Assembly (NCBI RefSeq): GCF_024298905.1
Contig: NZ_CP101154.1
Coordinates: forward strand, 868,001-932,000
Direction of reading: 5' to 3'
Length of the DNA stretch: 64,000 nt
Origin: Natronomonas marina
GTDB taxonomy: Archaea; Halobacteriota; Halobacteria; Halobacteriales; Haloarculaceae
A model generated the notes under the pieces. It was given only the letters and a program-made list of their open reading frames with translations, had not been told where the DNA came from and ran no database searches. Both the position numbers and the translations under genes were made by a program. Positions 5,476-45,263 of this stretch are shown in pieces (position 1 is the stretch's first letter; each line of letters begins with the position of its first letter).

Positions 5476-6819
5476 ATGAAGCGTACCAACACGTTCGCCG
5501 TGCGACCGCTCACCGACGACGATGAGCGGGTGCTACGCGACTTGTTGGACGCTTCCGCCGCTCTCTGGAATGAGATTAACTACCAGCGCCTCATGCGCTA
5601 CAACGACGAAGACGGCTTCGAGGGCGACGTGTGGGACGCTGATACTGGTGCTCTCGAAGGCAAATACAAAGGCGTTCTCGGCGCGTCCACCGCTCAAACT
5701 GTCCGGCGAGCAAACACCGAAGCGTGGCGTTCGTTCTTCGAGAACAAGAAGCAGTTTCACGACGAATCGAACACGTCGGTCACGGAACACCCCGACCCCC
5801 CGGGGTTCCGTGGCAACGAAGACGACGGACGTGTTCTCAAAGGCGTCGTCCGAAAGGACGCATACACCGTCGAATGGGGCAACCGCTCTCGACTTGAGAT
5901 GGTCGTCGGCAAAGAACTCCGAGACAGACACAACAGCCCGAAAAGCCGTCTTCGGCTCGAAATCGTTGGCAAACCGAACTGGCCCGACTACGATGACCAA
6001 GGCCGGTTGGAACTATGGTACGACGAGACTGATTGTACGTTCAGAGCTTCGCAACCCGTGACTGTTTCTGCTGATGCACGGGATACTCCACTGGCCGACG
6101 AAAAGGCCGCTCTGGACATTGGCGCGAACACTCTCGTCGCCTGTACCACCACAACCGGCGAGCAATACCTGTATGAAGGCCGTGAGTTGTTCCAGCGATT
6201 CCGTGAGACGACGCGAGAAATCGCCCGATTACAGTCGAAACTCGAAGAAGGCCGATACAGTAGCGAGCGTATCCAGCGGTTGTACCGGAAACGAACTCGT
6301 CGCCGGGACCACGCCCAAGAAGCACTGTGTCGTGACCTGCTTGAACGACTGTATGCCGAAGGTGTGGATACGGTGTATATCGGTGGCTTGACTGACGTAC
6401 TCGACACGCACTGGTCGGTCGAGACGAACGCCAAGACCCACAACTTCTGGGCGTTCAAGCAATTCACCGAGCGACTGGCGTGTACCGCCGAAGAATACGG
6501 TATCTCGGTCGAAGTCCGGTCGGAAGCGTGGACCAGTCAAGAGTGCCCGCAGTGCGGTTCGACAGACCGAACGACGCGGCATCAGGACACGCTCACCTGT
6601 CCGTGTGGGTTTGAGGGACACGCCGACCTTACAGCGTCAGAAACGTTCCTGAGACGGCACACAGAGCAGGCAGTCAGGCCGATGGCACGGCCCGTGCGGT
6701 TCCAGTGGGACAATGATCAATGGCGTTCAACCACAGACGCTTCTTCAAATCCCAAAGAACAGCGCACAGACCCGAGTACCGTCCACCGCGACGGGAATGT
6801 TGCTTCCGGGGAATCTTAG
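5476..6819 (+). CDS. tnpB: TnpB-family (IS605/IS1341 OrfB) protein with altered RuvC catalytic site
   Basis: The 447-residue protein has the TnpB layout: N-terminal helical recognition part, RuvC core, C-terminal zinc ribbon. RuvC-I aspartate is D214 ([11 protein letters not shown]) and RuvC-III aspartate is D384 (GHADLTASE). The zinc ribbon is CPQC...CPC at residues 357-377. Where the other two TnpB proteins in this window read FEDLTDI, this one reads YIGGLTDV (301-308), so the RuvC-II glutamate is replaced by glycine. Active TnpB is an RNA-guided nuclease (family knowledge); this copy is predicted to bind but not cut. No tnpA is present. A right-end-like hairpin follows at once. Confidence 0.88.
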
Positions 6820-6911: not shown

Positions 6912-7712
6912 ATGCTCACCTTCGTCGGCCTCGGCCTCTACGACGAACGCTCGGTCACGCTCGAGGGCCGCGACGCCCTGCGGGCCGCCGACCGCGTCTT
7001 CGCGGAGTTCTACACCAGCAAGCTCGCCGGCGCGACGGTCGGGGAGCTAGAGGAGTTTCACGACGTCGATGTCGAAGTACGGGACCGCGCGGGCGTCGAG
7101 AGCGACCCCGAGCCGATACTCGAAGCCGCCGAGGGCGGCGACGCCGTCTTCCTCACCGCCGGCGACCCGATGATATCGACGACCCACGTCGACCTCCGGC
7201 TGCAGGCCGAGTCCCGCGGCGTCGACACCCGCATCGTCCACGGGACGACCGCCGAGGCCGCCGCGGCCTCGCTTTCGGGACTGCAGAACTACCGCTTCGG
7301 GAAGGCGACGACGCTGCCGTTCCCGTGGGCGCACGGGTCCGACGGCGTCCCCGAAAGCGTCGTCGACACCGTCGAGACCAACCGCGAGCGCGGGCTCCAC
7401 ACGCTCGTCTTCCTCGACATCAAGATCGGCACGGGACCGACCGGTCCCGACCCCGACCACGAGGAGTACATGACCGCAGACCGCGCCGCGGGACTGCTCG
7501 CCGGAGAACTCGATGCCGTCGGCGTCGCCGTCGCCCGCGCCGGGAGTCCGGACCCCGTCGTCGCCGCCGACGAACTGTCGGCGCTCGCGGACCGCTCGTT
7601 CGGCGACCCGCTGCACCTGCTGGTCGTCCCCGGCGACCTCCACGTCCTCGAACGCGACGCGCTCGTCGAACTCGCGGACGCGCCGCCGTCGGTCCTCCCC
7701 GACCCGGTCTGA
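6912..7712 (+). CDS. dphB: diphthine synthase
   Basis: The 266-residue protein begins at ATG 6912 (MLTFVGLGLYDERSVTLEG), the standard start of this family; longer frames would run into the tnpB right end. It has the tetrapyrrole-methylase-type fold with the motif VFLTAGDPMISTTHVDL and the segment GLQNYRFGKATTLPFPW. DphB methylates the diphthamide precursor on elongation factor 2 using SAM. It is convergent with the archaeosortase gene, with only 5 bases between stops. Confidence 0.93.
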   Translation: MLTFVGLGLYDERSVTLEGRDALRAADRVFAEFYTSKLAGATVGELEEFHDVDVEVRDRAGVESDPEPILEAAEGGDAVFLTAGDPMISTTHVDLRLQAESRGVDTRIVHGTTAEAAAASLSGLQNYRFGKATTLPFPWAHGSDGVPESVVDTVETNRERGLHTLVFLDIKIGTGPTGPDPDHEEYMTADRAAGLLAGELDAVGVAVARAGSPDPVVAADELSALADRSFGDPLHLLVVPGDLHVLERDALVELADAPPSVLPDPV

Positions 7713-7717
7713 GACTG

Positions 7718-8689
7718 TCAGTCGTCGGCACGCGTCGGCTCGACGTTCGGCCCCTCGGCGTCGTCGGGCAGCAGGTCGAGTTCGGCCGCGGTGTTTCGCT
7801 CCTCGCCGGTCACCATGTAGGCGACGTCGTCGACGATGACGAGCAGTTCGGGTAGCTCCCGGATGACGACCCACGCGATGGCGACCAGCGCGACCACCGA
7901 CAGGGTCTGGCTGACGATGCCCTCGGCGACGATGTGAGAGACCATGTAGGGGTCGGACTCGCCGAACAGCGACATCAGGTACGGCGAGTACGGCCCGTCG
8001 AACCACTGGTGGCCGAACGCCAGCCCGATGAACGTCGTCCGGACGATGTTCAGGACGTAGATGACCGGGATGGCGACGGCCAGCGCCCGGAGCTTCCGGC
8101 GGAGCGGCGCCCGCACCGCGGCGATACAGCCCGCGAAGATGGCCATGCTGCCCAGCGCCGTACACGCCATCACGATGTTGTAGACGATGCCGCCGTGGGC
8201 GGGGTCCGGCGTCTCGAAGTAAAACGCTGCCATGTACCCCTCGTAGGCCGGCCGGCCGGGGCCGATGGGGCGCAGCGTCGGGTCGTAGCCCAGCAGACCC
8301 ATCAGCAGTTCGGTCTGTCGGGCAACGTGTTCGACGAGTAGCTGCCGGACCAGCGGAATCGTCTCGGCCGGCAGGTAGATCAGCCCCATCACGGCGACGG
8401 CCCGCGAGAGGACGAAAAGCGAGTCCCGGCCGTCCACGAGGAGGTAGGCCGCGTAGACGCAGGCCGGCACCCCAACGAGCGCAAGGAGCGCCTCGAGGAC
8501 GCTGTTCTGGACGAAGAAGAAGTGCGGCACCAGGAGTAACCAGAAGGCCGCGAACAGGACCCAGGCGGCGCCGACGACGTAGCGTGCCCTCGCCGGGTAG
8601 CGCCGCTCGGCAAGCGCGCCGCCGCCGAACAGCGCGAGCAGCGCCCACGCCAGCGGATCCGTGACCGCCAGTACGTCGACGGGGAGCAT
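7718..8689 (-). CDS. artA: archaeosortase A paralogue 1
   Basis: The 323-residue protein has about seven or eight membrane segments and the archaeosortase/exosortase core. The candidate catalytic Cys176 lies in MACTALGSMAIF and Arg217 in LNIVRTTFIG; a histidine (H252) stands in the third conserved helix. Archaeosortase A removes the C-terminal membrane tail of PGF-CTERM proteins and joins them to archaetidyl lipid (known for Haloferax volcanii ArtA). The gene lies 65 bases downstream of the Tat-exported protein gene and two genes downstream of a second paralogue. Where paralogue 2 has an arginine in the third motif (ADRVISQ), this copy has AEGIVSQ. Confidence 0.88.
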   Translation of the reverse strand: MLPVDVLAVTDPLAWALLALFGGGALAERRYPARARYVVGAAWVLFAAFWLLLVPHFFFVQNSVLEALLALVGVPACVYAAYLLVDGRDSLFVLSRAVAVMGLIYLPAETIPLVRQLLVEHVARQTELLMGLLGYDPTLRPIGPGRPAYEGYMAAFYFETPDPAHGGIVYNIVMACTALGSMAIFAGCIAAVRAPLRRKLRALAVAIPVIYVLNIVRTTFIGLAFGHQWFDGPYSPYLMSLFGESDPYMVSHIVAEGIVSQTLSVVALVAIAWVVIRELPELLVIVDDVAYMVTGEERNTAAELDLLPDDAEGPNVEPTRADD

Positions 8690-8754
8690 CTACCGGGAGG
8701 ATGGGCCGGTCGCCTAAAGTCCTTGTCGGCCCGTGTGCCCGCCCCGGGCGAGCG

Positions 8755-9771
8755 TCACCAGTAGACGTCCGTGGCGCGGTGGCGGTCGTCGTAGGCCGCC
8801 AGCCCGCGGCCGGTCACCGACGTGAGGTGGAAGTCGTCGTACAGCGTCGAGTGGGTGTAATCGAGGAACGTCATCGGGACCACGAGGTCGCCCTCGACCC
8901 GGACGGCCGAGGCGACGCCGGTGAAGGCGTGTTTGTGCCGGTCGTCGCTGACGTAACAGGTCGCCACCGGCGGTCGCTGGGCCCACGGCTCGACCGCCTC
9001 CAGCGCCTCCATCGACCGGACGACCAGTTCCCAGCAGAACAGCCCCGTCTCCTCGTTGGACAGCATCGCCTCGAAGCTCACGTCGCCCTCGAAGTGCTGC
9101 CGGAGGTCCGCGGCCCCGAAGATGACGTTGTCCTCGATGGAACCCGCCACGTACCGCTGGACATCGTAGGAGGCGTGCTCGCGGAACCCCTCGACGAGTC
9201 CGTCGGCCAGCGCCTCGGTCCGGTGGGGGTCGACGCCGGCGAACCGCCGAATCAACTCGGGTGAGACCGACTCCTTCGCGTCGCCCCGCAGCGCCGCGAC
9301 CAGCTCCGGACGGCGCTCTCCGTCTTCGACCCGCTCGAAGAACGCCGGCGGCTGGCTGAAGGTCAGCGCACCGGCCGAGAAGTCGCTCGCGTCGGCGTAC
9401 AGCGCCTCCAGCCGACCGCCGAGGCCGCGCTCGGCGTCGAGGTCGCTCGCCGCCGAACGCGCGTCGTCCTCGAGCGCGAGTCGCCGTTCGTCGTCGCCGG
9501 TCCCGACGACGACCGCACCGTCGGCGAGGCGAATCCGGGTTCCCGCGACCCGCTCGTCGTAGGCCAACGACAGGTTCTCGGTGACGACGGCCGCGAGGTC
9601 CTGTTCCTCGAGGTTCGTCCCGTTGCCGAGTTCGCCGTAACCCAGGAAGATGTTGTCGACGGCGCGGAACGCCCCGATGCCGACGGCCGATCCGCCCACA
9701 CCGGCGAGAAAGCGCCGTCGAGAGACGTCGGGCAGGTCCAGGTCGTCGGGGCCGGGACCCTCGTCGGTCAC
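8755..9771 (-). CDS. Tat-exported protein of unknown function, possible transglutaminase-like Cys-His-Asp triad
   Basis: The 338-residue protein starts at GTG 9771, overlapping the TGA of archaeosortase paralogue 2 by four bases. Residues 17-35 (VSRRRFLAGVGGSAVGIGA) form a twin-arginine signal, so it is folded inside and exported; no lipobox Cys is seen. The first half is acidic and helical. The C-terminal part has Cys246 in ETGLFCWELVV, His281 in DDRHKHAFTGVA and Asp304 in VPMTFLDYTHS. This spacing and the G..VPxxxLDxT pattern resemble transglutaminase-like folds, but this is my inference. It sits between two archaeosortase genes, so a role in processing or attaching surface proteins is plausible. 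Confidence 0.75.
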   Translation of the reverse strand: MTDEGPGPDDLDLPDVSRRRFLAGVGGSAVGIGAFRAVDNIFLGYGELGNGTNLEEQDLAAVVTENLSLAYDERVAGTRIRLADGAVVVGTGDDERRLALEDDARSAASDLDAERGLGGRLEALYADASDFSAGALTFSQPPAFFERVEDGERRPELVAALRGDAKESVSPELIRRFAGVDPHRTEALADGLVEGFREHASYDVQRYVAGSIEDNVIFGAADLRQHFEGDVSFEAMLSNEETGLFCWELVVRSMEALEAVEPWAQRPPVATCYVSDDRHKHAFTGVASAVRVEGDLVVPMTFLDYTHSTLYDDFHLTSVTGRGLAAYDDRHRATDVYW

Positions 9772-10721
9772 CGCTCGGGGTCACCCCCGTCGGTCGCGGC
9801 CGAAGGCGGTCGCAACCGCACCTCGTCGCCGGTCAACAGGTACAGCAGGTCCTCGGCGATCCCGAGCAACTCGGGTACCCACCGCGAGACGAGCCACGCG
9901 ATACCGACCAGGGCGAACAGCGCCAGCCCCTGAGAGATGACCCGATCCGCGAGGAAGAACGAGACCCGCGCCGGGTCCGACAGCCCGAAGGCCGTCATCA
10001 CCGGCCCCTCCAGGGCGGCGTAGTCGAACCACTGGTAGCCGTTTGCCGCCGCGATGAAGGCGTTGCGGCCGACGTTGAGCACCCAGATGATCGACAGCGA
10101 CACCGCGAGCGCGACCACCTTCCGGCGGAGCGGTGCCCGCACCGCACCGATCAGCCCCCCGAAGATGGCCATGCTCCCGATGCCGGTACAGGCGAAGACG
10201 ACCCGCGAGGCCCGCCCCGACTCCGGGAAGAAGAACGTGTTGTGCAGCGACGACCCCGCGTGGGGGTCCTCGACGAGCCGCATCCCGCCGCCGAGCCCCA
10301 CGACCTCCAGTAGCCACGTCGTCTGGCGGGCGACCGTCTCGATGAGGAACCCGCGTGCGGCCGCCGAGGTCTGGAACGGCAGGTAGATCAGCCCCATCAC
10401 GGCGACGGCCCGCGAGAGGACCAAAAGCGAGTCCCGGCCCCCCAATAGCGTCCAGCCGACGTACAGACACATCGGCACCGCGATCACGACCAGCACCGTC
10501 TGGATGATGCTCCGGTGGATGAACGCGAACTGGTGGATCAACAGCAGCCAGAAGACCGAGAAGAGACCCCACGCAGCGACCGTCAGTTTGCGGGCGAGTG
10601 CCCGCCGGTCGGCGTAGTCGGCGGCGACGCCCGCCAGAAAGACCGCGATGACGACCCACGCGAGGGCGTCCGTGACGGGAAGTACCGACACCTCCGTCAG
10701 CGACTGCACGGGAACGCTCAT
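9768..10721 (-). CDS. artA: archaeosortase A paralogue 2, next to the S-layer gene
   Basis: The 317-residue protein starts at ATG 10721 (MSVPVQSLTEVSVLP); an in-frame extension to 10778 is possible but would pass through the TATA box. It has the archaeosortase fold with Cys178 (FACTGIGSMAIF), Arg219 (LNVGRNAFIA) and Arg260 (FFLADRVISQ). These match the Cys-Arg-Arg set reported as essential in H. volcanii ArtA. It is coupled by GTGA to the Tat-exported protein and lies 165 bases downstream of the S-layer glycoprotein gene, the best known ArtA substrate. A stretch of 62 bases is almost identical to paralogue 1. Confidence 0.88.
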   Translation of the reverse strand: MSVPVQSLTEVSVLPVTDALAWVVIAVFLAGVAADYADRRALARKLTVAAWGLFSVFWLLLIHQFAFIHRSIIQTVLVVIAVPMCLYVGWTLLGGRDSLLVLSRAVAVMGLIYLPFQTSAAARGFLIETVARQTTWLLEVVGLGGGMRLVEDPHAGSSLHNTFFFPESGRASRVVFACTGIGSMAIFGGLIGAVRAPLRRKVVALAVSLSIIWVLNVGRNAFIAAANGYQWFDYAALEGPVMTAFGLSDPARVSFFLADRVISQGLALFALVGIAWLVSRWVPELLGIAEDLLYLLTGDEVRLRPPSAATDGGDPER

Positions 10722-10743
10722 TGGTGGGTGATGCGCCACGACG

Positions 10744-10751
10744 AGTATATG
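10744..10751 (-). promoter_or_regulatory. TATA box for the archaeosortase 2 operon
   Basis: On the minus strand the sequence catatac stands about 25 bases before ATG 10721. That geometry predicts a leaderless or nearly leaderless transcript, typical of haloarchaea. It separates this operon from the S-layer transcript. Confidence 0.5.
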
Positions 10752-10886
10752 TCTTGTCGTCGCGGGCGCGCCGATCACACGACCACGGCCGCCGGCACGG
10801 GAGCCGGCGCGCTGTCGACGGCCGCGTCGCTGTCGGGCGCAGCGCGCGAAAGAATGGAAACCGGGAAAACCGGGCGATCCGGTTAG

Positions 10887-13800
10887 TTAGAAGTCGTTCC
10901 GACGGGCTGCCAGCAGCGCAGCACCGAGGAGCGCGATGAGGGCGAGCGCGGCACCGAAGCCGGGCTGGTCCTCACTCGTGTCCGTCGGCGTCGCCGTCTC
11001 CGGCTCGTCCGTCGGCGTTGCCGTCGGGTCCGGCTCGTCCGTCGGCGTCGGCGTCGGATCCTCGAAGGTCACCGAGGCAGAGGCGGTGACGATGTTGTTC
11101 TCGTCACCGGCGGTGTACGGAGCGTCTTCCTGACCTTCGCTGGTCACGAAGTCGTACTCCTCGTCGTTGTCAGTGTCCTGGTGCGGCATGGCGATGGCCG
11201 TGCCGTCCTCAGTGTACGGGTCGTCGAGGGGGACCTCGACGTCCGTCAGGTTGGTGTCCGCCTCGAGGTAGGCGGAGGTGCCGCGGACGCTGTCGAGGAC
11301 AGCGCCGTCCTGCAGCGTGCCGTCGTGGATCGTCACGAAGCCACCCTGCGGCAGGTACGCGGTGTCGACGGTGATGGTCGACAGCTCGTCCTGGTCGGGC
11401 CCGACCGTGATGTCGGAGAGGGTGACGCTTGCGGGCGTACCCTGCACGACGATGCCGGGCTTCTCGGCGGCGTCCTCGACTCCGACGTTCGGGGCCGTGA
11501 CGACGAACTCGCGTCCGACCTCGTTGTCGGAGAAGTCGAAGCTATCGTCGGCGAAGGTGCCGTTCTCGCCGACCGTCGCGGAGCCACGCTGGAACACCGG
11601 GGCGAGGTCGCCCGTCTGGGTGTCGTTGGCGCGGCGGGTCCGGCTGGTGGAGTCCACCGCGATGGTGATCTCCGTACCGGGTGCGACGTTCGTCTCACCG
11701 GAGATGGTCTGGTTGGCCGCGTTGTTCACGCGGACCTGGTCGGCGCCCTGCTCGTCGAACTCGAGTTCGCGGTCCTCGGTGTCGAGCTGGACGTCCGTCT
11801 CACCTTCGGGGACGTACGTGTCGATACCGCCCTCGTAGGCGTTCTCGAAGCCGGGGCCGGTCTCGAACTCGAACTCGAAGTCGTCACCGGGGTCGACCAT
11901 GGCGTCCTCGGTGTCGTCGCCGGTCGCCCGGGTCAGCTCGAGTTCGCGCACGTCGGTGACGATGTACAGCGTCTCGTTGTCCTCGTCGATGACGAACCGG
12001 AACTGGTCGTCATCGTTCGGGTTCTGGTACTGTGCGCGCTTCGGCTCGCGGTTCTGCCGGAAGTTCGTCTGGTTCAGCTCGACGTCGAGAACGGGCTCGT
12101 CGGCGAAGCCGAGACCCTCCTCGGACTGGGCGTCCGCGAGGACCTGGTTGCCGTTGGCGTTGTCGAGGTCGTTCTCGGCGATGGCGTCGAGCGCACCGTA
12201 GATACCGCTGATGTCGACCTTGTGGACGAGGACGTCACGCTGCTCGGACCGGTCGCGGTCCGCGAGCGTGACGAGGTCCGTCTCCGAGAGGTCGGAGTTG
12301 TTGACGAGATCCGTCTTCTCGTCGAGGCTGCCCAGCGTCGCGTCGGGATGACGCATCTGGGTCAGGTTGTTGTAGCTCGACGGCTCGACGTTGACGACGC
12401 CGGCGTCGTACTCGTTACCGTCGGTGTCCTGGGCGACGAGGTCGTACTGCCCCTCGTCGAGGACGCCGGTGATCGGGTCGTCGGAGCGGCGGTCGACGTC
12501 GACGATGGTACCGTTCTCCGCCTCGTAGGCGCGGCTCTCGTTGGACTCGTTGAGCCGGCCGGCGATGAACGTGTTCATCCGGATGTCGACGTTACCGTCG
12601 GCGTCCGGTTCGGCCGTGACGGCGACCTCGTAGTTGTTCCGCTCTTCGTCACCGATGACGACGACGACGAAGTCGATACCCTGGGTGTCGACCGAGATGG
12701 TCGAGTCGGAGTCACCCTGCGGGCTCTGGATGTCGCCGCGCTTGACGGTGAAGGCGCCGGAGTCGGAGTCGAACTCCGCGTTACCTTCGAGCTCCTCCTG
12801 GACCTCGATGGACGCGTTGTCCATCGGGGTGGTGTCCGTCGGCGTGAACTCGAACGAGTAGTTACCCGTGTCCTCGCCGGCGAAGTCGAAGTCGATCTCG
12901 GCGCTGCTGTTGATGTTGTTCACGCGGATCGAGTCGTCGCTCGGTGCGCGGTCCTCGTTGATGTTCGCGGTCGAGGAGTCGTTGACGATGGCAGCCAGTT
13001 CGCTCTGGCTGAAGTCGTCGGAGGCGACGTAGAGGTCGTAGCCGTTACGGTTGGAGTCGACCTCGAGGGTCGCGTTCTCGCCCACGCGGACGGAGTCCTC
13101 CTCGAACTCGGTGTCGAGGGTCTGCGGCACGATCTCGACGTAGTCGTCCTCGCCGACCGTGGTGTCGTCACCGTCGCTGCTGAAACAGTCGGCCGTCTGC
13201 TGGCCAGCGGGCGCGCCGGCCTCGGGGCCGACGTCGATGATCTCCTGCTGGTTGGTGTTCGGATCCTCCGCCGTGATGACGACCTGCTCGTTGTCGGCGA
13301 CGTTGTCCGTCGGGATCTGCGCACCGTCGGTGTCGTTCAGCGAGATCTCGCGGATGAGCGTCCCGTAAGCCTGGTCGCCGTTCTCGTCACCGGGAGTGTA
13401 GTAGCGGAGCTGGTAGGTGTCCTCGTCGATGTTACAGGCGCCCGGAGTGGCCTGGAAGTCGAGGACCTGACCCTTCCAGCGGGTCGACCCACCGGCGAAC
13501 TTCTCGTCGGTGTTGCGGTCGTCGTCGCCCGCGCCGGCGTCACCCTCGATCTGGTACTCCACCGTAGCCGACTCGAAGGTGTTACTCGGACCTTCGTCGG
13601 TGTACGAGAGGAACTCCAGTTCGTAGGTGTCGTCGACGCTCGGGTTCGTGATGACATCGTCGAAGTCGACCGTCAGCGTCGCGTCGTCGCTGACGTTCTC
13701 CTTCTCCTGGAAGTCCAGCGCGATGCTGTCTCCGTCGGTGGTCGTGTCCTGCAGCTGGACCTCACGGTTCTGGTTTTCACCGTAGTCGCCAGCGTTCGGG

Positions 13801-14132
13801 TCGTCGATGGTCACGGTAACGTCACTGGCGCCAGTGAAGTTGTCCGTGTTGCCACCGAACTGGCTGGCATCGGAGAGGTCGACCTCGACGGCGGCAACCC
13901 CGGAGGGGTTGTCGCTCGTCGTGTCGCTGGTGTTATCGAAACTAGTCGTGATGGTATAGCCGGTCGTTGCTCCTGCCGCATCGCTGTCGAGGGCAACCTG
14001 GGTGTTGTCCAGATCGCCGTCGGAAACTGCGGCAGCGCTCCCTGCGAACGCTACGGTGCCTGCGAAGACCCACAGGACCATAAGCGCTGCAAAGAACACC
14101 GCGCGCAGCGTATTGTCGTTGTCGTCTGTCAT
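10887..14132 (-). CDS. csg: S-layer (cell surface) glycoprotein with PGF-CTERM tail
   Basis: The 1081-residue precursor begins MTDDNDNTLRAVFFAALM and has a Sec signal ending near SAAA, as in known haloarchaeal S-layer glycoproteins. The mature part is very acidic, has many Asn-X-Ser/Thr sites (for example NFTG, NDTD, NESN), and ends with a domain of about 110 residues (STITVDTAYLPQGGFVTIHDG onward, DUF7282-like). A Thr/Pro-rich linker and the tripartite PGF-CTERM signal follow: QPGFG, a hydrophobic helix, and the basic end AARRNDF. It builds the outer cell envelope. Its tail is the substrate type for the archaeosortases encoded just downstream. Expression is expected to be very high. Confidence 0.95.
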   Translation of the reverse strand: MTDDNDNTLRAVFFAALMVLWVFAGTVAFAGSAAAVSDGDLDNTQVALDSDAAGATTGYTITTSFDNTSDTTSDNPSGVAAVEVDLSDASQFGGNTDNFTGASDVTVTIDDPNAGDYGENQNREVQLQDTTTDGDSIALDFQEKENVSDDATLTVDFDDVITNPSVDDTYELEFLSYTDEGPSNTFESATVEYQIEGDAGAGDDDRNTDEKFAGGSTRWKGQVLDFQATPGACNIDEDTYQLRYYTPGDENGDQAYGTLIREISLNDTDGAQIPTDNVADNEQVVITAEDPNTNQQEIIDVGPEAGAPAGQQTADCFSSDGDDTTVGEDDYVEIVPQTLDTEFEEDSVRVGENATLEVDSNRNGYDLYVASDDFSQSELAAIVNDSSTANINEDRAPSDDSIRVNNINSSAEIDFDFAGEDTGNYSFEFTPTDTTPMDNASIEVQEELEGNAEFDSDSGAFTVKRGDIQSPQGDSDSTISVDTQGIDFVVVVIGDEERNNYEVAVTAEPDADGNVDIRMNTFIAGRLNESNESRAYEAENGTIVDVDRRSDDPITGVLDEGQYDLVAQDTDGNEYDAGVVNVEPSSYNNLTQMRHPDATLGSLDEKTDLVNNSDLSETDLVTLADRDRSEQRDVLVHKVDISGIYGALDAIAENDLDNANGNQVLADAQSEEGLGFADEPVLDVELNQTNFRQNREPKRAQYQNPNDDDQFRFVIDEDNETLYIVTDVRELELTRATGDDTEDAMVDPGDDFEFEFETGPGFENAYEGGIDTYVPEGETDVQLDTEDRELEFDEQGADQVRVNNAANQTISGETNVAPGTEITIAVDSTSRTRRANDTQTGDLAPVFQRGSATVGENGTFADDSFDFSDNEVGREFVVTAPNVGVEDAAEKPGIVVQGTPASVTLSDITVGPDQDELSTITVDTAYLPQGGFVTIHDGTLQDGAVLDSVRGTSAYLEADTNLTDVEVPLDDPYTEDGTAIAMPHQDTDNDEEYDFVTSEGQEDAPYTAGDENNIVTASASVTFEDPTPTPTDEPDPTATPTDEPETATPTDTSEDQPGFGAALALIALLGAALLAARRNDF

Positions 14133-14466
14133 GGTTGTTGACTGCTATCGGCCGGCGACCGTACCTCGTACGCGACGGGGCACCGCAGTCAGCCCGACGT
14201 CGGTACGCTGTACTGTCACCATGGGTAGGGGTACACCTCGAAGAACTATCGCCCACTATAAATGCTTTGTGGGGTCTGCCGGGTCGTGTCAACTGTTCAC
14301 GCTGCCGAAAACGGCGGGTAGAAGGCTTTTGGTAGTTCGTGGCACACCCGTCAGACGGGTGACGTACACATATAAAGGAACGGGCGGTCCGGGGGCAGAT
14401 TTACACCTTTGCGACACGCGCGTGCGCCCGTTCTGACAGGTTCGCATGTCCTCCGTCGGCGGGGCG
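14133..14466 (-). promoter_or_regulatory. upstream region of the S-layer gene with two TATA-like boxes
   Basis: This gene-free stretch serves as the S-layer promoter region. Reading toward the gene, a TTTATA-type box lies at about 14255-14263 (minus strand gcatttatagtg), which would give a leader near 100 bases. A second TTTATATG box lies at about 14367-14376. Strong S-layer genes often have more than one promoter (family knowledge). Confidence 0.5.
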
Positions 14467-17362: not shown

Positions 17363-18613
17363 TCAGTCTCCGGCAACAGGCCGGTGACTATCGCCGTTCA
17401 ACGTCCCACCATTTATACGCAGGTCTACTTCTGCGTCTCCGCCCCCCGACTTGGGCGAGGAACGGAGTTTGTGCGTCCGCTTTCGGGCGTAGCGTAGCCC
17501 GATGTTCTTCGCGGCGTTGTAATCCGCGTTTATTTCGTATCCGCACTTCTGGCACTCAAAGTGTTCTCCCTGGCGGTTGTCGTCGTGCGTGAACCCGCAG
17601 TCTGTCCGAGAACAGCGTTGGGACGTGTGGTTCGGCTCGACTTGCTCCACGGAGACGCCCTGGTCGGGTGCTTTGTAGGAGACATACCCGAACAGGCGTC
17701 GAAACGCCCATACGTGGTGCCACTTCGCCTGCGGAAGTCGCTCGCGTATGTCCGTTAAGTCCTCGAATGCGATAACGTCGCAGCCGTGTTCGACGGCTTC
17801 CGAAACGATTTCGTTGGCGACCGTGTGGATGTACTGTTTGCGCCACGCTTCTTCCCGTCTCGCAAGTCGAAGCAGGGCGTTGTGCGCGGCTTGAGTGCCC
17901 CGCTGTTGCATTTCACCGCGTCGTTTCTCGAACTCGCGGCACCAGTGGTCGTACTCGTCTCCTTGCCAGAACGTGCCGGTTGAGGAGACAGCGAGACTGT
18001 TGACGCCGAGGTCGATACCGAGGACCGTTTGGTCGGGGTGCCCGGTATCTACCGAAACCTCTGCGTCCTCGCCGTCGATCCGCCGCGTCGAGATGTTGAG
18101 GTAGAACTCGTCGGTTGCTGCGTCGTACCGTAGTGTACTCTCGCGGAACTCGTATTCCTCGGAGAGTACGTACCGCTCGTAGGGCGTCGGACTGTCTGCC
18201 GGGAGAACGAACGGCGGTTCGACCCGGCCCTCGACAGTTGCCAGCGACGCCTTGTTGCGGTAGAAGGTCGCGCTCCGCGTGTCGTAGTCCATCGTCTCGG
18301 CGGTGAACGTCGGACAGGAGACGCGCTGTCCTTTCTTCCACCGTTCGACAACGGCTTTGACCGCTTCGACGGCGCGCCGTATCGCGGCTTGGACGAGTTG
18401 TGCCTGTAAGTCCGTCTCCTCTCGAAATTCGGAGTACAGAGCGTCCCGCACCTGCCGTTTGTTGGTCTTGCACTTGGTGAAGGACGTGACAGACCAACAG
18501 TATTCGGCGGTTCGGTTCGCACAGTACAGGTATTGCTCGGCGGTTCGGTGGAGTGCGTCGCGTTGCTCGTCGGAAACGATAAGTTTCACGACGGCGGTTC
18601 GACGCACGTCCAT
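17363..18613 (-). CDS. tnpB: TnpB RNA-guided nuclease (IS1341-type, lone)
   Basis: The 416-residue protein has all three RuvC acidic residues: D201 (VLGIDLGVNSLAVS), E284 (IAFEDLTDIRE) and D364 (INADYNAAKNIG). It has a zinc ribbon with Cys near 334, 339, 354 and 357. The N-terminal recognition part starts MDVRRTAVVKLIVSD. TnpB cuts DNA guided by an RNA made from the element's right end (family knowledge). No tnpA transposase lies nearby, so the element depends on an outside TnpA. It appears intact and possibly active. Confidence 0.92.
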   Translation of the reverse strand: MDVRRTAVVKLIVSDEQRDALHRTAEQYLYCANRTAEYCWSVTSFTKCKTNKRQVRDALYSEFREETDLQAQLVQAAIRRAVEAVKAVVERWKKGQRVSCPTFTAETMDYDTRSATFYRNKASLATVEGRVEPPFVLPADSPTPYERYVLSEEYEFRESTLRYDAATDEFYLNISTRRIDGEDAEVSVDTGHPDQTVLGIDLGVNSLAVSSTGTFWQGDEYDHWCREFEKRRGEMQQRGTQAAHNALLRLARREEAWRKQYIHTVANEIVSEAVEHGCDVIAFEDLTDIRERLPQAKWHHVWAFRRLFGYVSYKAPDQGVSVEQVEPNHTSQRCSRTDCGFTHDDNRQGEHFECQKCGYEINADYNAAKNIGLRYARKRTHKLRSSPKSGGGDAEVDLRINGGTLNGDSHRPVAGD

Positions 18614-43443: not shown

Positions 43444-43469
43444 TCGAGATGTAATTTCAATTGTGTATA

Positions 43470-45263
43470 ATGACAAGCGAATCGACAGTTACGACCGTAG
43501 GGGTCGTGTTACTCGTCGTTCTCGCGGGAATCGCGGGCTCGATGGTGGTTGCGACGCAGACGGCCACCTCGAGCGTCAGTATCGACGCCACGCCGTCGGA
43601 CTCGCCGCCGGCCAGCGGCGTTTCGACCCACACCGTCGTGTTCGACGTCGGGGCCGACTCGGTGCTCGCCGGGCAAGCCCTGAACGACGTCCTGGTCGAC
43701 TACAGCATCGCCCAGCCGACGTCACAGGTCGGCAACGTCGGCGCCTCCGACATCGTCACGATCGGCATCGACGAGGGCGGTGACAACGTCGGCACGAGGG
43801 TCGACTCGGAGGCGACCGTCTCCTCGGTGACCGGCCAGGCCGACGGTCAGGCGCTCCTCGTCGAGACCGGCGGAGGCCTGACGGTTCAGCCCGGCGACGA
43901 GGTCGTCCTCGTCGCCCAGCAGGTCCAGAACCCCGACACCAGCGGGACCGCCCAGGTCGACGTGACTGTCAACAGCCAGCAGGACATCTCGGGGACGGCA
44001 TCCAGCAGCGTCACCTACGAGTTCAACGACGCGACCGTGGACTTCCGCGGTCAGGAGACCACCGGTGAGACGGTGACGGTCGACTCCGTGACTCTCTCGG
44101 AGGGCGGCTTCGTCGCCGTCTCGAACACGAGCAGCGCCGACTCTGGCGAAATCCGCGGCTCGGCCTACCTCGGCGAGGGCACCCACACCGACGTCGAGGT
44201 CACGCTCGACGAACCCGTCCAGGCGGACCAGACCCTGTACGCGCAGGCTCACCTGGACACCGACGGCGACCAGCGATTCGACTTCACCGACTCCGGCAGC
44301 GCACAGGACGAACTCTACCGGACTGGCGACGGCAACGTCCAGACCAGCGGTGACGGCGCCAGCGCCCAGGTGACCGTCGTCGAGTCGACACCGACTCCGA
44401 CTCCGACACCCACCGACACACCAACTCCGACACCCACCGACACACCAACTCCGACACCCACCGACACACCAACTCCGACACCCACCGACACACCAACTCC
44501 GACACCCACCGACACACCAACTCCGACACCCACCGACACACCGACCGACGGCGGTGACGACGACGACGACGACGGCGGCGACCCCGATCCGGAGATTACC
44601 GACTACACCGTCACGGCCGACGGCAGCCAGATAACGGTCTCCTTCGAGAGCGACGAGGACCTCGTCGACATCGAGGTCGACGTCAGCGGGCCCGACGCCG
44701 GCACGCTCGACACCGAGGACTTCGACGGCAACCGCGTCGAGGGCTACACGGCCACCTACGAGGCCGGCAGCGACGGCGAGTACACCCTCGAACTGGTGAC
44801 CGCCGAGGACTCGACCAACAACGACGGCGCCGACGACGGCGACTACTCCGGCACGGCGACGGTCGATAGCGCCGACGATGGTGACGACGAATCGGCCGAC
44901 GACGGTGACACCGGCGATGGAACGCCGACCGACGACGGAGACACCGGCGATGGTGACACCGGCGACGACGGATCGGCCGACGATGGAACGCCGACCGACG
45001 ACGGTGACACCGGCGACGGTGACGACGGCTCCATGGACGATGGCGACGGTGACTCCACGGACGGCCAGACACCGACGCCGACCGACGACGGCGCCATGGA
45101 CGGCGACGACGGCGACGGCGCCGACGGCAGCGACGGTGACGCGGGCGGCGACGAAACGACCGAGACCGACGACGGCTCCGACGGCGACGGTGCCGGCTTC
45201 GGCGGCCTCGTCGCGGTCTCGGCGCTTCTCGCCAGCGCGCTGCTGTTCTACCGGCGGCGATAG
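43470..45263 (+). CDS. surface protein with DUF7282-like domain and variant PGF-CTERM-like tail
   Basis: The 597-residue protein starts at ATG 43470 (MTSESTVTTVGVVLLVVLAG). It has an N-terminal hydrophobic segment, a beta-rich domain, then a domain (about 190-305, VTLSEGGFVAVSNTSSADSG to GASAQVTVVES) similar to the last domain of the S-layer glycoprotein. Thr-Pro repeats, another beta domain and a very acidic Asp/Gly linker follow. The end GAGFGGLVAVSALLASALLFYRRR has the three parts of an archaeosortase signal (GFG, hydrophobic helix, basic end) but lacks the usual Pro. It is a likely archaeosortase substrate. Confidence 0.78.
   Translation: MTSESTVTTVGVVLLVVLAGIAGSMVVATQTATSSVSIDATPSDSPPASGVSTHTVVFDVGADSVLAGQALNDVLVDYSIAQPTSQVGNVGASDIVTIGIDEGGDNVGTRVDSEATVSSVTGQADGQALLVETGGGLTVQPGDEVVLVAQQVQNPDTSGTAQVDVTVNSQQDISGTASSSVTYEFNDATVDFRGQETTGETVTVDSVTLSEGGFVAVSNTSSADSGEIRGSAYLGEGTHTDVEVTLDEPVQADQTLYAQAHLDTDGDQRFDFTDSGSAQDELYRTGDGNVQTSGDGASAQVTVVESTPTPTPTPTDTPTPTPTDTPTPTPTDTPTPTPTDTPTPTPTDTPTPTPTDTPTDGGDDDDDDGGDPDPEITDYTVTADGSQITVSFESDEDLVDIEVDVSGPDAGTLDTEDFDGNRVEGYTATYEAGSDGEYTLELVTAEDSTNNDGADDGDYSGTATVDSADDGDDESADDGDTGDGTPTDDGDTGDGDTGDDGSADDGTPTDDGDTGDGDDGSMDDGDGDSTDGQTPTPTDDGAMDGDDGDGADGSDGDAGGDETTETDDGSDGDGAGFGGLVAVSALLASALLFYRRR
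44400..44543 (+). repeat. six perfect 24-bp tandem repeats
   Basis: The unit actccgacacccaccgacac (first 20 of 24 bases) is repeated six times without a mismatch at 44400, 44424, 44448, 44472, 44496 and 44520. It encodes the TPTPTDTP octapeptide linker. Synonymous positions are also identical, so copy number is probably unstable. Confidence 0.92.

Follow-up and report, generated by a model that had tools for sequence, protein, structure and literature searches.

Introduction

Haloarchaeal cells keep their S-layer, and many other surface proteins, in place by lipid anchors at the C-terminus. For the joining of the lipid there is as yet a model, with ArtA, PssA and PssD as its three known proteins. 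In its published form, archaetidylethanolamine is the product of PssA and PssD; ArtA cuts PGF-CTERM proteins by way of a Cys thioester, which the amine of the lipid then resolves. In Haloferax, ArtA processing depends on PssD, the enzyme for the proposed anchor lipid; in haloarchaea, artA and pssD have been reported as unclustered. Critical residues of the Haloferax ArtA are C173, R214 and R253 (PMC9263693).

Here, we describe a locus of Natronomonas marina that has two archaeosortase A genes with a gene for an exported protein between them. It lies in a stretch of 64,000 nucleotides (NZ_CP101154.1, positions 868,001 to 932,000), which we call the window. The locus is best read as a resident class-A one to which a class-B archaeosortase and its newly recognised exported partner have been added. 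What is new is probably this partner, a so far unnamed protein, as part of the anchoring machinery; our search of the open-access literature found nothing on a Tat partner of archaeosortase.

The locus and its surface glycoprotein

The features of the locus are as follows.

6912..7712, plus strand: dph5-like gene (diphthine synthase; Pfam TP_methylase), the conserved convergent neighbour of artA1
7718..8689, minus strand: ArtA1, class-A archaeosortase A adjoining dph5 (TIGR04125, trees and residues)
8755..9771, minus strand: predicted Tat-exported protein ("Tat protein"), 338 aa, unnamed family (alignment of the RR pair, neighbours)
9768..10721, minus strand: ArtA2, archaeosortase A of the Tat-linked branch (TIGR04125, trees and residues)
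10738..10760, minus strand: putative artA2 promoter, ACGACAAGACATATACTCGTCGT, kept upstream of 11/11 compared Natronomonas artA2 genes
10887..14132, minus strand: surface glycoprotein (csg), S-layer-like, 1081 aa (TIGR04126 and TIGR04207 over cut-off)
14257..14262, minus strand: TATA-like box TTTATA 5' of the surface glycoprotein, a putative promoter element

An earlier note on this DNA had read four genes on one strand in the order surface glycoprotein, ArtA2, Tat protein and ArtA1, and all four are found in that order on the minus strand. The coupling that it described is also present: the GTG start of the Tat gene overlaps the TGA of ArtA2 by 4 bp (GTGA), and ArtA1 follows after a gap of 65 bases. 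The gap between csg and ArtA2 is 165 bases long and holds a T-rich tract and a TATA-like promoter; csg therefore need not share a transcript with the genes behind it. Two IS605 TnpB-like genes (5476-6819, plus strand; 17363-18613, minus strand; OrfB_IS605 and Cas12f1-like_TNB) flank the locus, a possible trace of mobility.

The surface glycoprotein scores above the cut-offs for both PGF-CTERM (TIGR04126, 47 bits) and halo_sig_pep (TIGR04207, 42 bits), and carries BGTF and DUF7282 domains, with the PGF-CTERM at its C-terminus. Its score against the S-layer equivalog NF041335 is 88 bits, far below the cut-off of 1100, and the designation "S-layer glycoprotein" is therefore likely but unproven. 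The TTTATA element some 125 bases upstream of the start, if it acts as the promoter, implies a leader of about 100 nt. In the genome as a whole, 15 proteins match PGF-CTERM over the cut-off. A second surface protein of the window (43461-45263, plus strand) has a long linker of TPTPTPTD repeats and a C-terminal PGF-CTERM match of 27 bits, also over the cut-off.

Two archaeosortases from different branches

ArtA1 and ArtA2 match TIGR04125 over their full length with 330 and 321 bits (cut-off 75), bearing out the claim of two archaeosortase A genes, and are the only two such matches in the genome. A search of the genome with PF09721 (Exosortase_EpsH) retrieved nothing, and a check by Pfam alone would therefore miss both. 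In alignment, C178, R219 and R260 of ArtA2 correspond to the Haloferax triad. ArtA1 keeps C176 and R217, and has Gly257 at the position of Haloferax R253, with a lineage-specific histidine (His252) five residues before it; this position is Gly or Ser in 6/6 Natronomonas ArtA1 proteins. Judging from these alignments, the critical arginine of archaeosortase A seems to be replaceable, perhaps by histidine as in bacterial exosortases. Natrialbaceae-like ArtA proteins have Asn, preceded by His, at the same position. ArtA1 is the most conserved of the three proteins encoded by artA1, artA2 and the Tat gene (dN/dS about 0.2); therefore, it is not decaying and is still under purifying selection. The possibility, raised in the earlier note, that one of the copies is a decayed gene without a clade of its own is thus not borne out, as both are intact, constrained and placed in separate clades.

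TIGR04125 proteins occur in 390/391 haloarchaeal genomes, nearly always as one copy. We built trees on 80, 123 and 54 ArtAs. The Natronomonas ArtA1 falls within the class-A branch (support only 93/87), the members of which come from genomes nearly all lacking the Tat protein, and ArtA2 is sister to the ArtA of Halalkalicoccus (100/99), in which the glycoprotein-ArtA-Tat order is the same as in the window. The Tat tree also groups Natronomonas with Halalkalicoccus (support 92). These matching groupings indicate that ArtA2 and the Tat protein were inherited together.

The two archaeosortases lie close together, as would be expected had artA simply been duplicated recently with an unrelated Tat gene hitchhiking. 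We regard this explanation as scarcely credible and rejected it: monophyly of the Natronomonas ArtA1 and ArtA2 is refuted (AU p = 0.0004), the two share only 45% identity, Tat and ArtA are linked in other families too, and elsewhere the Tat gene adjoins pssD. The earlier term "paralogues" is accordingly misleading, as ArtA2 belongs to a distinct branch shared with Halalkalicoccus and is not a duplicate of ArtA1.

We refer to the Tat-linked branch as class B. The Tat protein is present in 2/47 genomes with class-A ArtA only vs 41/66 with a class-B ArtA; the Fisher value for these counts (5e-11) is not a fair probability, given that the sample was enriched for Tat-positive genomes and that its members are related. 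In family f1, class-B ArtA is found in Natronomonas and in Halomarina and its relatives, where it always adjoins the Tat gene. In Halomarina and related genomes (G156, G159, G306 and G389), this pair is followed by a class-A ArtA that adjoins dph5. Four additional TIGR04125 proteins (L181-L184, from G372, G258, G165 and G228) are very divergent (132-174 bits) and form a deep, separate branch of the ArtA tree, which may represent a third archaeosortase type.

The conserved unit of the locus

The earlier note had proposed that csg, the second archaeosortase and the Tat protein form a dedicated S-layer attachment unit, acting together specifically on the S-layer glycoprotein. The co-directional order glycoprotein-ArtA-Tat in this genome, in other Natronomonas and in Halalkalicoccus speaks for such a unit, as does the order glycoprotein - Tat - ArtA - ArtA in Halomarina and related genomes. 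The gene order thus recurs beyond this genome. Nonetheless, we consider the dedicated unit improbable. In 12/12 Natronomonas genomes artA2 adjoins the Tat gene, but the glycoprotein adjoins artA2 in five and is missing from the locus in the other seven, where ArtA2-Tat stays. (In G352 the Tat gene is reversed and lies between two artA genes; in G390, a draft genome, its frame is broken.) Further, artA1 is also present in six of the 12, and the other six keep artA2-tat alone. ArtA2 is the sole ArtA in those six genomes and therefore must serve every PGF-CTERM substrate there; the present genome has about 15 such proteins. In other families, the Tat gene adjoins pssD rather than csg.

A surface-glycoprotein-like gene upstream of artA, with dph5 convergent behind, was also found at 9/18 Tat-less loci from several families (L114, L116, L117, L120, L122, L123, L124, L127 and L130). 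The similarity of these nine to the surface glycoprotein is 25-33%, and they may be other PGF-CTERM surface proteins. An S-layer gene beside artA thus looks common in haloarchaea without any Tat protein, which further weakens the case for a dedicated S-layer unit.

The probable separate promoter of artA2 is another argument against it. The element ACGACAAGACATATACTCGTCGT has a TATA-like core flanked by an inverted repeat (ACGAC...GTCGT) and lies about 22 bases before the ArtA2 ATG. We compared 11 Natronomonas artA2 genes, with and without csg upstream, and each has a recognisable form of it, with unchanged spacing to the start. When up to two mismatches are allowed, the present genome has no second match. 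From this conservation, ArtA2-Tat probably has its own promoter, and the inverted repeat is a possible site for a gene-specific regulator. The element was sought upstream of pssD in Natronomonas and not found there. The unit that is kept is ArtA2 plus the Tat protein, with a conserved promoter that is probably its own.

On these comparisons, the locus most likely goes back to a block common among haloarchaea (glyoxalase, surface glycoprotein, artA and convergent dph5) into which the artA2-tat pair was inserted, probably after acquisition by horizontal transfer. ArtA1 would then be the resident class-A enzyme, dispensable in half of the genus.

Distribution of the Tat protein and its link to pssD

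Homologues of the Tat protein are widespread, being present in 57/391 haloarchaeal genomes, contrary to the possibility that the protein is confined to this one; a search of a phylum-wide sample gave matches in Halobacteria only. The Tat gene adjoins artA in 22 of the 57 genomes, on the same strand in 21. In another 18, which belong to two families (f3, Natrialbaceae-like, and f7) outside the artA-linked lineages, it immediately follows pssD, with both genes on one strand. The usual order there is Lhr - PssD - Tat - convergent AAA ATPase, and the adjoining PssD matches NF038088, "protein sorting system archaetidylserine decarboxylase" (296 bits, cut-off 240). Halalkalicoccus and G045 have the same PssD locus without a Tat gene.

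In all, the Tat gene adjoins artA or pssD in 40/57 genomes, from several separate clades of the Tat tree. A random gene would be expected beside either in about 0.1% of genomes (an estimate from some 3,500 genes). Because of this disparity, which is our strongest evidence, the Tat protein probably belongs to the ArtA-PssA-PssD pathway as an exported accessory, to judge by gene neighbourhood. This second neighbour lends further weight to the earlier suggestion that the single-ArtA model should be extended by an accessory exported protein.

In the remaining 17/57 genomes, the Tat gene adjoins neither artA nor pssD; in six it lies beside L31e/aIF6. Further, 25/66 sampled class-B genomes lack the gene. 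The Tat protein is therefore not obligatory. Many Natrialbaceae-like genomes also lack it, as do the sampled Haloferax-like ones. In two small genomes of family f11 (L086 and L087), the Tat gene lies in a run of NAD/PLP biosynthesis genes, nadA-nadB-tat-pdxS, with the gene names taken from a reading of the sequence.

The present genome encodes a sorting-type PssD of its own (NF038088, 304 bits, cut-off 240; G000:C1:1772751-1773323). Two genomes from genera near Natronomonas (G016 and G041, family f1) have archaeosortase A and no NF038088 match; thus, the lipid of some ArtA systems may come from elsewhere.

Sequence and predicted structure of the Tat protein

The Tat protein begins with the motif SRRRFL, both arginines of which (R18 and R19) are invariant in 57/57 aligned sequences. 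It reaches 11 bits on TIGR01409, below the cut-off, but has the twin arginines followed by a hydrophobic stretch that characterise a twin-arginine substrate; residues 18-43 are helical in the AlphaFold2 model. This model is confident (pLDDT 81, pTM 0.79), as is that of residues 101-338 (87 and 0.84).

Besides Arg18-Arg19, the alignment has Arg162, Phe196, Arg206, Cys246, Arg252, His279, His281 and Phe302 as invariant residues, and Tyr202, Asp203, Tyr207, Asp304 and Tyr305 as near-invariant ones. In the model, Cys246 is at the start of a helix, His281 at the start of a strand and Asp304 just after a strand, that is, in the Cys-His-Asp order on helix and strands known from papain/transglutaminase-like enzymes. 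The conservation of Cys246, His279/His281 and Asp304 and their modelled positions suggest a cysteine enzyme.

No family could be assigned. The protein has no match in Pfam, NCBIfam or the PDB, and sequence searches of the PDB with the single protein and with the family profile gave no meaningful match. Foldseek searches of the PDB (full model and residues 101-338) and of BFVD (full model) gave no match with E < 0.08; weak matches to arylamine N-acetyltransferases and MlaC-like proteins were not used as evidence. Comparison of the Tat profile with 30 haloarchaeal transglutaminase cores (hhalign) gave a probability of 0.2%. The protein was not assigned to the transglutaminase-like superfamily, as there was neither a profile nor a fold match.

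The Tat protein also evolves faster than the archaeosortases (dN/dS of about 0.5-0.7 vs 0.2-0.35). Such rates are typical of interface proteins and, with the lack of an enzyme family, would suit a non-enzymatic helper of class-B ArtA: an adaptor, chaperone or inhibitor that holds substrate, lipid or enzyme, with Cys, His and Asp in structural or metal-binding roles. The best weak fold match, a phospholipid-binding MlaC-like protein (E 0.13, not significant), points the same way. We deem a helper of this kind somewhat unlikely; the cluster of invariant C, H-x-H and D, with R and Y-D-x-x-R-Y, resembles an active or metal site.

Discussion

Our overall reading, that artA2-tat was inserted into a common block and that the Tat protein works beside ArtA in lipid anchoring, is one that we favour with fair confidence. 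ArtA2 would be a PGF-CTERM archaeosortase of the canonical kind, its catalytic residues facing the outside of the membrane. The Tat protein would be exported folded, probably stay tethered by its signal helix and, if its neighbours are a guide to its pathway, act beside ArtA in C-terminal lipid anchoring. Its most likely role would be in a cysteine-dependent (papain/transglutaminase-like) reaction, at the hand-over to the lipid or immediately after it; candidates are transfer or trimming at the new C-terminus, or clearing of the released peptide. Its chemistry and exact step are speculative. The fuller proposal, in which the Tat protein is a catalytic exported cysteine enzyme that, with class-B ArtA, defines a second class of archaeosortase system and completes or edits the lipid attachment begun by ArtA, is tentative, and we rate it as possible rather than likely.

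For an anchoring step that is missing or lineage-specific, the Tat protein offers a testable candidate. Haloferax, the organism on which the pathway was elucidated, seems to lack it. Where a genome has adjacent ArtAs of both branches, the two enzymes can be compared within a single cell.

Among described systems, that of Haloferax volcanii (ArtA, PssA and PssD) is alike in its TIGR04125 enzyme, its PGF-CTERM proteins and its sorting-type PssD, all of which have counterparts in this genome. H. volcanii has one ArtA, whereas two from different branches are present here; and the Tat partner conserved here is missing from most searched genomes of the family to which Haloferax belongs, with a match in one of many. 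The Cys-His-Asp order of the Tat protein, with spacings of 35 and 23 residues, is like that of transglutaminase-like and papain-like enzymes (PF01841, arylamine N-acetyltransferases), and its GxFC...HAF...TFLDYT loosely recalls the transglutaminase-like GYC...HAW...TFDPT, a resemblance only. The artA-pssA-pssD cluster of Methanosarcina (PMC7157517) likewise ties an archaeosortase to lipid enzymes by gene position. In Methanosarcina the pathway genes themselves cluster, whereas in haloarchaea it is an extra exported protein that adjoins artA or pssD, depending on the lineage.
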